NCBI RefSeq assembly: GCF_030254645.1
Contig: NZ_CP116346.1
Span: 1,406,001 to 1,470,000 of the forward strand
Direction: 5' to 3'
Length of the DNA stretch: 64,000 bases
Source: Paucibacter sediminis
GTDB lineage: Bacteria; Pseudomonadota; Gammaproteobacteria; Burkholderiales; Burkholderiaceae_C
Shown: in pieces, positions 8,971 through 56,015 of the stretch
Position numbering within the stretch: the first letter of the stretch is position 1
How the letters are laid out: each line of letters starts with the position of its first letter
Position numbers and translations under genes: made by a program
Notes under the pieces: generated by a model
Told to the model about the DNA's origin: nothing
Seen by the model: only the letters and a program-made list of their open reading frames with translations
Database searches by the model: none

Positions 8971-8992
8971 CTAGGGGCCTGTTGACGCTACG
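8971..8992 (+). repeat. Degenerate single end of the 266-bp element family
   Basis: The bases GGGCCTGTTGACGCTACG at 8975-8992 match the terminal repeat of the element at 55460 in 16 of 18 positions and are preceded by TAG plus one extra G. No matching second end is found nearby. It lies in the short gap between the divergent exporter and sensor-kinase genes. It is either a relic of an old copy or a chance resemblance. Confidence 0.4.
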
Positions 8993-29803: not shown

Positions 29804-29954
29804 GATGTGAGTTCCCGTTCGCCGGAATGGCCAAGGCCGCCATGGTGCCCAAGGCGGCGCAGGCGCGCCAGCCGCGCGCCATTGCACGCACGGCGCGGCG
29901 GGGCTTCAGCGCGCCTGCCTACAATCCGGCGGCCGGTTCGCTATGAGCCGGCAG

Positions 29955-30098
29955 CGTTCTCAGGGCGGGGCGGAATTCCCCACCGGCGGTATGCATGCCT
30001 TCATGCGAGCCCGCGAGCGCCCGCGGCCGCCAGGCCGCGGGGTCAGCAGATCTGGTGCGATGCCAGGGCCGACGGTCACAGTCCGGATGAAAGAGAAC
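29955..30098 (+). promoter_or_regulatory. FMN riboswitch (RFN element)
   Basis: The classic RFN order is visible. A closing stem is formed by GTTCTC at the start and GAGAAC at the end. Inside are CAGGGCGGGG followed by GAATTCCCCACCGGCGGTA, then a variable stem with AGCCCGCGAGCG, then GGTCAGCAGATCTGGTG, and finally GCCGACGGTCACAGTCCGGATG. It lies about 115 bases before the lumazine synthase gene on the same strand and should lower its expression when FMN is plentiful. Confidence 0.93.
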
Positions 30099-30114
30099 GC
30101 GAGTGCGCGGCGCG

Positions 30115-34906: not shown

Positions 34907-36208
34907 ATGTCCAACCTCATCGTCCACGGCGGCGCCCCCTTGGCCGGCCGCATCGTTCCCTCGGCCAACAAGAACGCCATCCTGCCCATCTTGTGCGCCA
35001 CCCTGCTCACGGCCGAGCCGGTGCGGTTGCGCGGCATCACCGAGATCACCGACGTCAAGAAGATCCTCGAGGTGTTCCGCAGCCTGGGCAGCTCGGTGGA
35101 GGTGGACTTCCAGACCGGCATCCTCGACGTGCACCACAAGAGCACGCATTTCGACCCGGCCAGCGACCGCCTGCCCGAGGAAATGCGCTCCAGCATCATG
35201 CTGGTGCCGGGCCTGATGGCGCGCTTCGGCGCGGCGCGCATCGAGGACGATGTGAAGGGCTGCACCCTGGGCGCGCGCGAGATCGACCCGCATGTGGAGG
35301 TGTTCGAGCGCTTTGGCGCGGTGGTGGAGCGTCAGAGCGACGGCCTGCTGCTGAACGTGCCGGGCCGGCTGCGCGCCAACGACCACTGGACCGACTACGC
35401 CTCGGTCACCACCACCGAGAACTTCGTGCTCTGCGCCGCGCTGGCCGAGGGCACCTCCACGCTGATGAACGCCGCCAGCGAGCCGCATGTGCAGGAGTTC
35501 TGCGCCTTCATGCAGATGCTCGGCGCCAAGCTGGAGGGTCTGGGCACCTCGCGCCTGAAGATCAGCGGCGTCGAGAAGCTCGGCGGCGGCGACTTCACCT
35601 TTGCCGAAGACTTCCACGAGATCGTCACCTTCCTGGCGCTGGGCGCCATCACCGGCGGCGACGTGCAGGTGAAGAACTCGCAACCCGAGCAGTTCCCGCT
35701 GATCGACCGCACCTTTGCCAAGTTCGGCGTCCGCATCGAGCACAAGGACGGCTGGTCGCGCGCCATCACCACCGGCGCGCTCAAGGTCAAGGAACCCTTC
35801 ACCCGCAACATCCTGCAAAAGGTCGAGGCCGCCCCCTGGCCCTATCTGCCGGTGGACCTGCTGCCCATCTTCGTGGCCCTGGGCGTGAAGGCCGAGGGCA
35901 GCGTGATGTTCTGGAACAAGATCTACGACGGCGCGATGGGCTGGACCAGCGAACTCTCCAAGTTCGGCGCCCATGCCTTCCTCTCCGATCCGCACCGCAT
36001 GGTCACCTTCGGCGGCAAGCCCCTGCATGCGGCCGAGGTCGAAAGCCCCTACATCATCCGCGTGGCCATCGCGCTCTTGATGGTGGCGGCCAGCATCCCG
36101 GGCCGCTCGGTGATACGCCATGCCGCGCCGATCCGCCGCGCGCATCCGCATTTCGTCGAGAACATCTGCTCGCTGGGTGCGCGCATCGAGTGGGTCGAAG
36201 GCGACTAG
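34907..36208 (+). CDS. murA: Divergent MurA-like UDP-N-acetylglucosamine 1-carboxyvinyltransferase
   Basis: About 433 residues. The enolpyruvyl-transferase fold is present, with Lys22 and Asn23 (SANKNAILPILCATLL), an Arg near 94 (EEMRSSIML), the PEP-attacking Cys119 (KGCTLGAREIDPH) and an Asp near 317 (PVDLLPI). However, several segments differ from standard MurA: IPLPGGCxIG-type wording becomes IEDDVKGCTLG, and the expected ENRF region reads WNKIYDG, so one substrate arginine seems replaced. It may be a paralogue with altered specificity rather than the housekeeping enzyme. The stop codon TAG is formed by the first base of the 266-bp element that follows. Confidence 0.85.
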   Translation: MSNLIVHGGAPLAGRIVPSANKNAILPILCATLLTAEPVRLRGITEITDVKKILEVFRSLGSSVEVDFQTGILDVHHKSTHFDPASDRLPEEMRSSIMLVPGLMARFGAARIEDDVKGCTLGAREIDPHVEVFERFGAVVERQSDGLLLNVPGRLRANDHWTDYASVTTTENFVLCAALAEGTSTLMNAASEPHVQEFCAFMQMLGAKLEGLGTSRLKISGVEKLGGGDFTFAEDFHEIVTFLALGAITGGDVQVKNSQPEQFPLIDRTFAKFGVRIEHKDGWSRAITTGALKVKEPFTRNILQKVEAAPWPYLPVDLLPIFVALGVKAEGSVMFWNKIYDGAMGWTSELSKFGAHAFLSDPHRMVTFGGKPLHAAEVESPYIIRVAIALLMVAASIPGRSVIRHAAPIRRAHPHFVENICSLGARIEWVEGD

Positions 36209-36473
36209 GGCCTGTTCACACTACGTTTGCACGATGCGTTGCCACCAGAAAAGCCGTGAACTAGGCGCAAACCGAAGCCGGGGTCACTCCCCCGGCGAGG
36301 CTTTGCAACGACGTGCACGGCTTTTCTGGTGGCAACCCGAAGGGAACGGGGTTGGCAGGGCCCATCTCGTCGTTGAACTCCTTGCCCAGGCAGCCAGCCT
36401 GGGCTGCGTCGTCCGCCTAGACCTGGGCCCTGCCAGCCCCGTTCGCACGGGCAAACGTAGTGTGAACAGGCCC
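36208..36473 (-). mobile_element. 266-bp structured element, copy 1 (TA-flanked, two internal hairpins)
   Basis: Perfect 23-base terminal inverted repeats (36208-36230 and 36451-36473) begin GGGCCTGTTCACACTACG and are flanked by TA on both sides (36206-36207, 36474-36475). Inside are two large hairpins. Stem A is 36238-36258 with 36316-36336, 21 of 21 paired. Stem B is 36344-36364 with 36424-36444, 20 of 21 plus a wobble. Each encloses a smaller hairpin (around 36285 and around 36395). No coding region is present. The sequence aligns best with the reverse complement of the copy at 55460, so I assign it to the minus strand by convention. Confidence 0.85.
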
Positions 36474-36480
36474 TAGGCCC

Positions 36481-54494: not shown

Positions 54495-55460
54495 ATGAAA
54501 CGCAGCAGTAGCACCCCGGCCACGCCCGGCCCCATCGATGCACGCGCCCTGGGCGTGATGACCCTGCTGTGCCTCACCTGGAGCCTGCAGCAGATCTCGC
54601 TGAAGGCGGTGGCCGACCAGGCCAGCCCGATGCTGATGGTGGCGCTGCGCTCGCTGGTGGCCCTGCTGCTGCTGGCGGCGCTGATGGCCTGGCGCGGCGA
54701 GGCGCCACAGCGTGCGCGCTGGCGGGCGGGCCTGCTGGCCGGCGCGCTGTTCGGGCTTGAATACCTGCTGGTGGCCCAGGCCCTGAAGCTGACGCAGGCC
54801 TCGCATGTGGTGATCTACCTCTACACCGCGCCGCTGTTCGCCGCACTGGGGCTGCACTGGCGCCTGCCGGCGGAGCGGCTCGCGGCGCTGCAATGGATGG
54901 GCATCCTGCTGGCCTTCGCCGGCATCGCCCTGGCCTTTCTGGGCGGCCGGCATGGCGGCGCGGCGGCGGGCGGCATGGCGCCGCTGGGCGATCTGCTGGC
55001 GCTGCTGGGCGGTGCGGCCTGGGGCGCCACCACGGTGACGATACGCTGCTCGGCCCTGGCCGCCGCGCCCGCCACCGAGACCCTGCTCTACCAACTGCTG
55101 GGCGCCTTTGCCCTGCTGCTGCCCGGCGCCTGGCTGAGCGGGCAATGGCAGTTCCAGCCCTCGGCCCTGGTATGGGCGCATTTCGGCTTCCAGAGCCTGG
55201 TGGTCTCGTTCGCCAGCTTCCTCACCTGGTGCTGGCTGTTGCGCCGCTACCTGGCCTCGCAGCTGGGCGTGTTCGCCTTCCTGACGCCGCTGTTCGGCGT
55301 GCTGCTGGGCGTCTGGCTGCTAGGCGAGGCCCTGGACCCCGGCTTCATCGCCGGCAGCGGCCTGGTGCTGGCCGGCATCGCGCTGGTGAGCGGCCACGCC
55401 GGCCTGGCACGCCGGCTGGCGGGGCTGCGCGAGCGCAAGGGTCGGGCACTGCCGGCCTAG
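54495..55460 (+). CDS. EamA/DMT-family transporter
   Basis: About 321 residues with ten hydrophobic helices in two EamA repeats. The first has LCLTWSLQQISLKAVAD and the second LLALLGGAAWGATTVTIR and LTPLFGVLLGVWLLGEAL, the usual positions of the family's conserved GE and W residues. These inner-membrane proteins export amino acids or metabolites, and the substrate is unknown. The divergent LysR gene is the likely regulator. The last codon position is set by the 266-bp element: the stop TAG consists of the flanking TA plus the element's first G. Confidence 0.92.
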   Translation: MKRSSSTPATPGPIDARALGVMTLLCLTWSLQQISLKAVADQASPMLMVALRSLVALLLLAALMAWRGEAPQRARWRAGLLAGALFGLEYLLVAQALKLTQASHVVIYLYTAPLFAALGLHWRLPAERLAALQWMGILLAFAGIALAFLGGRHGGAAAGGMAPLGDLLALLGGAAWGATTVTIRCSALAAAPATETLLYQLLGAFALLLPGAWLSGQWQFQPSALVWAHFGFQSLVVSFASFLTWCWLLRRYLASQLGVFAFLTPLFGVLLGVWLLGEALDPGFIAGSGLVLAGIALVSGHAGLARRLAGLRERKGRALPA

Positions 55461-55725
55461 GGCCTGTTAACACTACGTCGATGGGCCGCGAAGGCTCGCC
55501 TCAGCGGGCCAAGCTAGGCGCAGCGCGCCGCCCGCACTCACGTGCGGGCCAGCGTTGCAACGACGCGTGGCCCGCTGAGACGAGTCTTCCCGCAGGGTTG
55601 TGGCCAGAAAGACCGCAGGCCGCGTTGCAAATCCTCGCCGGGTGTCCAACCCGGCTGCGGTTTGCGCCTTGCCTGCGGCCTTTCTGGCCGACAACGCGAC
55701 CCATTGGCGTAGTGTTAACAGGCCC
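55460..55725 (+). mobile_element. 266-bp structured element, copy 2 (TA-flanked, two internal hairpins)
   Basis: Perfect 18-base terminal inverted repeats, GGGCCTGTTAACACTACG (55460-55477) and its complement (55708-55725), are flanked by TA at 55458-55459 and 55726-55727. Stem A is 55490-55511 with 55568-55589, 20 of 22 paired plus a wobble. Stem B is 55597-55620 with 55671-55695, with one bulge and one mismatch. The length equals copy 1 exactly and the hairpins fall at the same offsets within one base. Loop sequences such as CTAGGCG, CGTTGCAAA and CGGTTTGCGCC are shared with the reverse complement of copy 1, while the stems differ. No coding region is present. Confidence 0.87.
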
Positions 55726-56015
55726 TAAACCGGCAGCAGGTAGACGTCCGCCGCCGCGCGCTCCGCGGCGCTATGGCCTTGCAGGGCCTTGTCCCATGCC
55801 GGATCGCCGGCGTCGTGGCTCGCCGCCAGGCCCTGGATCATGTGGCCGGTCTCTTCGGTGCTGGCGTCGAACTCGGCCACCAGTTCGCGGTCGTCAAGAA
55901 ACAGCCGCGCCACCATATAACCGCCCGACTCGATCACCACCAGATAGCGCGCGGGCTTGCGCTGGTGGGTGTTGCTGTGCGGGCGGGGTGCCTCGCTGCC
56001 GAAGTTCTGGCTCAT
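55725..56015 (-). CDS. Unknown small protein downstream of the SNF2 helicase
   Basis: About 96 residues. I do not recognise the family. The N-terminal 20 residues are polar and probably flexible. The core RYLVVIESGGYMVARLFLDD suggests two beta strands, and the rest looks helical (ASTEETGHMIQGLAASHD). The gene starts 24 bases after the SNF2 stop on the same strand, so it is probably co-transcribed. Its stop codon TAG is made by the end of the 266-bp element plus the flanking TA. Confidence 0.72.
   Translation of the reverse strand: MSQNFGSEAPRPHSNTHQRKPARYLVVIESGGYMVARLFLDDRELVAEFDASTEETGHMIQGLAASHDAGDPAWDKALQGHSAAERAAADVYLLPV

Follow-up and report, generated by a model that had tools for sequence, protein, structure and literature searches.

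A MITE-like element with IS5-type affinities between the TAG stops of two convergent genes in Paucibacter sediminis

In the window, i.e. the whole 64,000-nucleotide stretch of Paucibacter sediminis DNA that was analysed, two convergent genes both end in a TAG stop codon that is completed by the same 266-bp repeat element. We consider it very probable that this element is a non-autonomous MITE, mobilised by an IS5-family transposase, whose target preference brings it into stop codons, where it rebuilds TAG and is tolerated. This account is built on the anatomy of the element, its genomic copies, a target consensus, intact neighbouring genes and the statistics of the insertion sites, all of which are direct observations. 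As the landing in stop codons follows mostly from the preferred target site, the arrangement is neat but largely ordinary, and it shows how a transposon can enter the tightest of junctions, that of overlapping convergent genes, without harm to either gene.

The insertion site and its two genes

The features on which the analysis rests are the following (window positions).

54495-55460, plus strand: gene for an EamA-family transporter, 321 aa (Pfam 3.7e-34)
55458-55459, no strand: left-hand TA of the duplicated target, supplying the EamA stop codon with its first two bases
55458-55460, plus strand: TAG stop of the EamA gene, made of the left TA and the G that opens the element; the joined flanks have TAA here
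55460-55725, no strand: MITE-like element (copy 2), 266 bp, quasi-palindromic, with a predicted three-way-junction fold
55487-55592, no strand: inner arm A of the element, an imperfect hairpin
55602-55689, no strand: inner arm B, with an apical motif common to MITE-like palindromes with other terminal repeats
55725-55727, minus strand: TAG stop of the 96-aa gene, made of the right TA and the element's other terminal G
55726-55727, no strand: right-hand TA of the duplicated target, which forms part of the stop codon on the minus strand
55725-56015, minus strand: conserved gene of 96 aa without a Pfam family; 62 of 299 genomes (own included) have a match
36206-36475 (genome 1442206-1442475), no strand: copy 1 including both TAs, situated at the TAG that ends a gene of the EPSP-synthase family

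Across the site, the sequence reads GCC TA, then GGGCCTGTTAACACTACG...CGTAGTGTTAACAGGCCC, then TA AAC C, with the ends of the element lying inside the TA pair. An initial annotation had described both TAG stops as supplied by the element, and the letters bear this out: the EamA reading frame ends GCC-TAG by way of the left TA and the element's first G, and the 96-residue gene on the minus strand ends GTT-TAG by way of the right TA and the other terminal G. When the element and one TA are removed, the flanks join to GGCCTAAACC, which agrees base for base with the reconstruction made there, reading GCC TAA on the plus strand and GTT TAG on the minus strand; in these joined flanks the convergent genes overlap by 4 bp (CTAA) and the TA is common to both stops. 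Since the base after the right TA is an A, the EamA stop was TAA before the insertion and is TAG now. The further proposal that the element landed in the two bases shared by overlapping stop codons is in keeping with the intact appearance of both genes, with the fit of GGCCTAAACC to the target consensus GGNCTAGNCC (agreement at five of the six informative positions) and with the same arrangement at two sister copies in the same genome.

We also weighed whether the arrangement might be a coincidence, in that one of the reading frames is spurious, or that the insertion truncated a longer gene and thereby made the stop. Such a reading could appeal to the lack of a Pfam family for the 96-aa protein and to the unconserved C-terminal tail of the EamA protein, to which 20 relatives align only as far as residues 301-317 of 321. 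However, the stop lies directly after residue 96 in 29/29 relatives' loci examined, so the minus-strand stop is native, and the right flank carries the EamA stop on as TAA, which makes this stop older than the insertion. These observations largely refute the coincidence, to which we give only a very small probability. The 299 genomes searched for the 96-aa gene belong to the same taxonomic family, and 61 of the matches lie outside the genome of P. sediminis itself.

Around the 96-aa gene, EamA was present in none of 29 loci of about 2-3.3 kb, which yielded no relative with this gene pair, and the 96-aa gene was present in none of 19 loci around EamA relatives. A search of 299 genomes with joined flanks gave, among the matches listed, none spanning the copy 2 junction. 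At the sister site at genome position 2024537, one relative lacking the element (genome G229, locus L298) can be aligned through the junction at 84%; in it, kup and the gene for the amidotransferase converge, both stops are TGA and 9 bp lie between them. This element-free convergent pair without a shared TA speaks against the shared-TA account, at the sister site only. In 29/29 relatives read, kup ends at the residue at which the element sits in P. sediminis, which supports a presumed insertion into the native stop codon at this sister site, though not the sharing of a TA.

Anatomy, copies and probable source of the element

The element ends in inverted repeats beginning GGGCCTGTTAACACTACG, with TA on either side. 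The 16-base terminal repeat occurs five times in the window when up to three mismatches are allowed, compared to 0.12 expected, and full-length elements occur elsewhere in the genome, so the ends are not due to chance. The 5.32-Mb genome contains 13 copies whose ends are paired; 12 measure 265-266 bp and the other 165 bp. Of the 13, 10 still have TA on both sides, giving the target duplication and the several dispersed copies by which MITEs are recognised. The element is likewise MITE-like in being short, in having terminal inverted repeats and in lacking a transposase gene, the reading frames confined to it being at most 73 aa long. Its DNA was matched in 21 of 60 genomes (own included), in many over part of the length only, and the exact degenerate end pattern was present in 48 of 399 genomes (own included). 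Solitary terminal repeats without a partner lie at window positions 8975-8990 and genome positions 165880-165897, possibly as relics of deleted copies; the latter starts at a GCC TAG. We further observed very small versions of 44-53 bp, approximately two back-to-back terminal repeats with TA on both sides, at loci L113/L248 (Roseateles violae), L186 (Solimonas fluminis), L403 and L450. In one relative (G029, loci L089-L100) only one of the 12 fetched copies has TA on both sides and many show CA or GA at one of them, which would suit old copies or a duplication that decays on one side first.

An autonomous relative with the same ends was found in three other organisms. When named genomes were searched for an exact match to a 20-base end, at least 120 stretches came back, and the 80 that were analysed contained 805-bp elements in Pseudoxanthomonas sp. 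J31, Xenophilus sp. Marseille-Q4582 and Gellertiella hungarica, all with TA on both sides and a CTAG target. In one of these copies (L250), segments from two frames match PF13340 (DUF4096, 1.2e-23) and PF01609 (DDE_Tnp_1, 3.5e-14). The 805-bp partner combines a DUF4096/DDE_Tnp_1 transposase with a 2-bp duplication at YTAR (3/3), as IS5/IS427-type elements do. Because these elements share their ends with the window element, they point to the latter being a MITE of an IS5-type transposon, and the 805-bp insertion sequence is its likely source of transposase. The IS5-type parent probably belongs to the IS427 group, a group name used in a published table (PMC3281130). One 146-aa query, run without a positive control, did not find the transposase segment in the genome of P. 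sediminis. Two further end pairs in another genome (L393 and L394 of G313), separated by 804 and 799 bp and flanked on either side by TA, are probably autonomous copies.

The window element adds to the known IS5-type MITEs, and a literature search over titles and abstract openings found no paper on MITEs in shared convergent stop codons. REP/BIME sequences consist of paired imperfect hairpins, often outside coding sequence. The window element resembles them, and systems with TnpA-REP, in its paired imperfect hairpins, but differs in having terminal inverted repeats and a TA duplication; such an origin was rejected, the sole Y1-transposase match in the genome not being accompanied by a close copy of this hairpin. 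With the IS5 family and its IS427-type members the element shares terminal repeats beginning with G, YTAR targets of which CTAG is commonest, and 2-bp duplications (PMC3281130 and PMC5493358). For IS5 the published target is Py-T-A-Pu, with CTAG the commonest at 15/24 (PMC5493358), and the IS427-group elements consulted in the table of PMC3281130 measure 832-865 bp with mostly 2-bp duplications. Together with the 805-bp partner, which carries DUF4096 and a DDE transposase, the lengths run from about 805 to 865 bp (same table, PMC3281130), whereas the window element is 266 bp long, non-coding and built of two inner hairpins on a basal stem. MITEPsy1 of Pseudomonas syringae is similarly small and non-coding, has inverted repeats, inserts at CTAG or YTAA and was probably moved by an IS5-family element, but its length is 100 nt, its duplication is 4 bp and its ends differ. 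It has six copies, two of them interrupting loci, two in intergenic DNA and two within other transposons (PMC3189936).

Stop codons and target preference

Of the 13 genome copies, 11 supply TAG to an adjoining reading frame, and three of these serve two convergent frames, namely window copy 2 and the copies at 1752104 (aminopeptidase P and MOSC) and 2024537 (Kup and class-II amidotransferase). Pfam or family conservation backs the gene at 8 of the 11 stop copies, the remaining three being 668738, 4570604 and 5273454. For copy 668738 the caller favoured an antisense reading frame, which makes its stop assignment uncertain, and at copy 301496 the left TA reads GA and the caller merged two genes, where Pfam shows two proteins with complete domains. 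The copies at 451169 and 1652773 are not at stops and both lie between divergent genes. With our home-made codon-usage caller, the source of all gene calls used here, applied automatically to the copies keeping both TAs, 8/10 were at stops. One copy (1913303-1913572, L068) lies inside a TAATG in which the stop of a penicillin amidase gene overlaps the ATG start of the next gene on the same strand, so that a probable translational coupling is split.

To judge these counts, we took as background the ordinary YTAR sites found over 464 kb of the P. sediminis genome, leaving out the window's two element copies. Among the 327 sites, 162 were intergenic, 111 lay inside genes, 46 in single stops and 8 in double stops, i.e. 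54/327 in stop codons. Against this share, P was 1.4e-7 for 11/13, 2.6e-6 for 10/13 and 1.8e-5 for 8/10, and three double stops in 13 gave P 0.0035. Convergent pairs overlapping by 4 bp numbered 9 of 79, counted with the window's two element copies in place, one double stop being at copy 1.

The element does not choose among YTAR sites evenly. Over 75 intact TA-flanked sites (49 plus 26 from a second batch) the target is GGNC-TA-GNCC, with G in 53% at -4, G in 57% at -3 and C in 76% at -1, mirrored on the right. The same preference was seen in 23 batch 1 insertions away from stops (G in 50% and 52% at -4 and -3). In GC-rich genes, codons of the form GNC are common. When such a codon precedes TAG on each strand, the result is the target palindrome, and targets are therefore often stop codons. 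Indeed, among ordinary sites that agree at 5 or more of the 6 informative positions, 19/43 (44%) are stop codons and 5/43 (12%) double stops.

We then weighted YTAR sites by this preference, using weights learned only from non-stop insertions (23 sites, possibly including stops that were not recognised as such). The expected share of stops in the P. sediminis genome became 0.345, or 0.587 with gene-internal sites excluded, and weighting about doubles the expected share, to about a third. Relative to these values, and treating sites within one genome as independent as in all our stop statistics, the curated 11/13 gave P 0.0003, and P 0.048 with gene-internal sites excluded. For batch 1 across all genomes, where null sites from other genomes were taken from stretches around the element, 24/44 YTAR sites were at stops compared to 0.327 expected (P 0.0023, or 0.039 with gene-internal sites excluded), with double stops at 7/44 versus 0.056 (P 0.01). 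Batch 2, from other genomes, started from 60 loci that gave 37 new element pairs. Of these, 26 were flanked on both sides by TA and had sufficient surrounding sequence, and 23 of the 26 lay at YTAR; here 9/23 were at stops versus 0.334 (P 0.35), and 3/23 were double stops versus 0.036 (P 0.047). Sequence preference thus accounts for batch 2, and batch 1 and the P. sediminis genome lie above it. The remaining excess of stops probably comes mostly from selection against insertions that break genes, and the excess of double stops is the main, if mild, hint of anything beyond preference and selection.

One might read these excesses as active targeting, in which the element family seeks out stops or converging transcription units beyond its sequence preference, for example through supercoiling, R-loops or termination complexes. 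The batch 1 and curated P. sediminis counts at stops, and the double stops above expectation in both batches, would fit such targeting. On the other hand, batch 2 is explained by sequence preference, both stop excesses shrink once gene-internal sites are excluded, and 40 of the 75 intact sites lie away from stops (20 intergenic and 20 gene-internal), the other 35 being at stops (25 single and 10 double). We therefore hold active targeting to be quite unlikely. Should the double-stop excess be real, the element could be used to test directly whether transposition is drawn to converging transcription.

Under the preferred account, in which target preference does most of the work, a MITE would be mobilised in trans by an IS5-family transposase with DUF4096 and DDE_Tnp_1, the transposase itself being inferred from the shared ends. 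This enzyme would duplicate TA and favour the palindrome GGNC-TA-GNCC with its YTAR, mostly CTAG, core; in a GC-rich genome the palindrome would approximate a GNC codon plus TAG on each strand, and targets would often be stops and, in some cases, the 4 bp over which two convergent ones overlap. With a G at each of its ends, the element would restore TAG on entering a TAR stop, both proteins would keep their length and the insertion would be tolerated. For copy 2, the plus-strand stop would have changed from TAA to TAG, the minus-strand stop would have stayed TAG and 268 bp would have been added between the gene ends. A testable rule follows: CTAG-preferring IS5-type elements should collect at stops in GC-rich genomes, because their target sequence lies there.

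The fold and the meeting gene ends

Folded on either strand, the element is predicted to form a basal stem with two hairpin arms, at -200.7 and -199.6 kcal/mol (z -15.6 and -14.3), and the outer arms of 42 nt are 88% complementary with some flank counted in. Across 47 elements with the inner motif (15 of 62 similar-sized elements were dropped for its absence), 96.3% of cells in the 89 predicted pairs are standard, and two-sided changes occur in 59 of the pairs.

The idea that the insertion now acts as a two-way transcription barrier fared less well than the insertion into a shared stop TA, which stood: a consensus scan of 55300-55900 found 0 intrinsic-terminator-like sites, i.e. no GC hairpin with a T run (Rho-independent terminator) on either strand, with 0.2 expected in shuffles. 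The very stable structure modelled right after both stops could affect transcript ends. A related explanation is that the element is kept at gene ends as something useful, separating convergent genes, ending transcripts or protecting mRNA 3' ends. The stability of the fold on both strands and the compensatory changes in 59/89 pairs would agree with this, but the same covariation is also expected if the palindrome matters for transposition or if template switching corrects it, 20/75 intact sites lie inside called genes, and terminator-like sites are lacking from the scanned interval. Hence, we regard usefulness at gene ends as unlikely. More generally, position at a stop codon is by itself no evidence of regulatory function.

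The apical motif of arm B (window 55623-55672) recurs in MITE-like palindromes with quite different terminal repeats, both at loci L124, L126, L127 and L128 and at genome positions 1851493-1851760, 2569223-2569489, 2836216-2836483 and 4899047-4899314. The repeats of these palindromes are AGAGCGTGTTTRCGATCCC in the P. sediminis genome and CTAAATGCGGCAGTTG, AACCTGGAAACGGCAGTTG and CTAGTGTCCTGAGTCAG in other genera, as though several transposon systems had acquired one and the same hairpin as cargo. A more speculative reading, which we think rather improbable, is that ends and target were shaped together for life in stop codons, with shared convergent stops as a safe harbour and the hairpin pair acting on the transcripts that meet there. 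It would build on GGNC-TA-GNCC being equivalent to two overlapping convergent stops in GC-rich genes, on the terminal G that rebuilds TAG on both sides, and on a hairpin pair that is conserved and whose apical motif also sits inside MITE-like palindromes with unrelated ends.

An identity with a known Rfam RNA was considered and rejected, as the window element gave only sub-threshold matches (best 38.8 bits versus a gathering score of 90), and in 15 other loci nothing reached the gathering score for the element, an FMN riboswitch being the only match. The same holds for the Cupriavidus-1 RNA, with a weak match of 24.1 bits (gathering 45.5) and none at E 1 in the one other motif carrier tested; a literature search on Cupriavidus-1 found nothing. 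In the window, the only Rfam match at the gathering score is an FMN riboswitch at 29952-30102.
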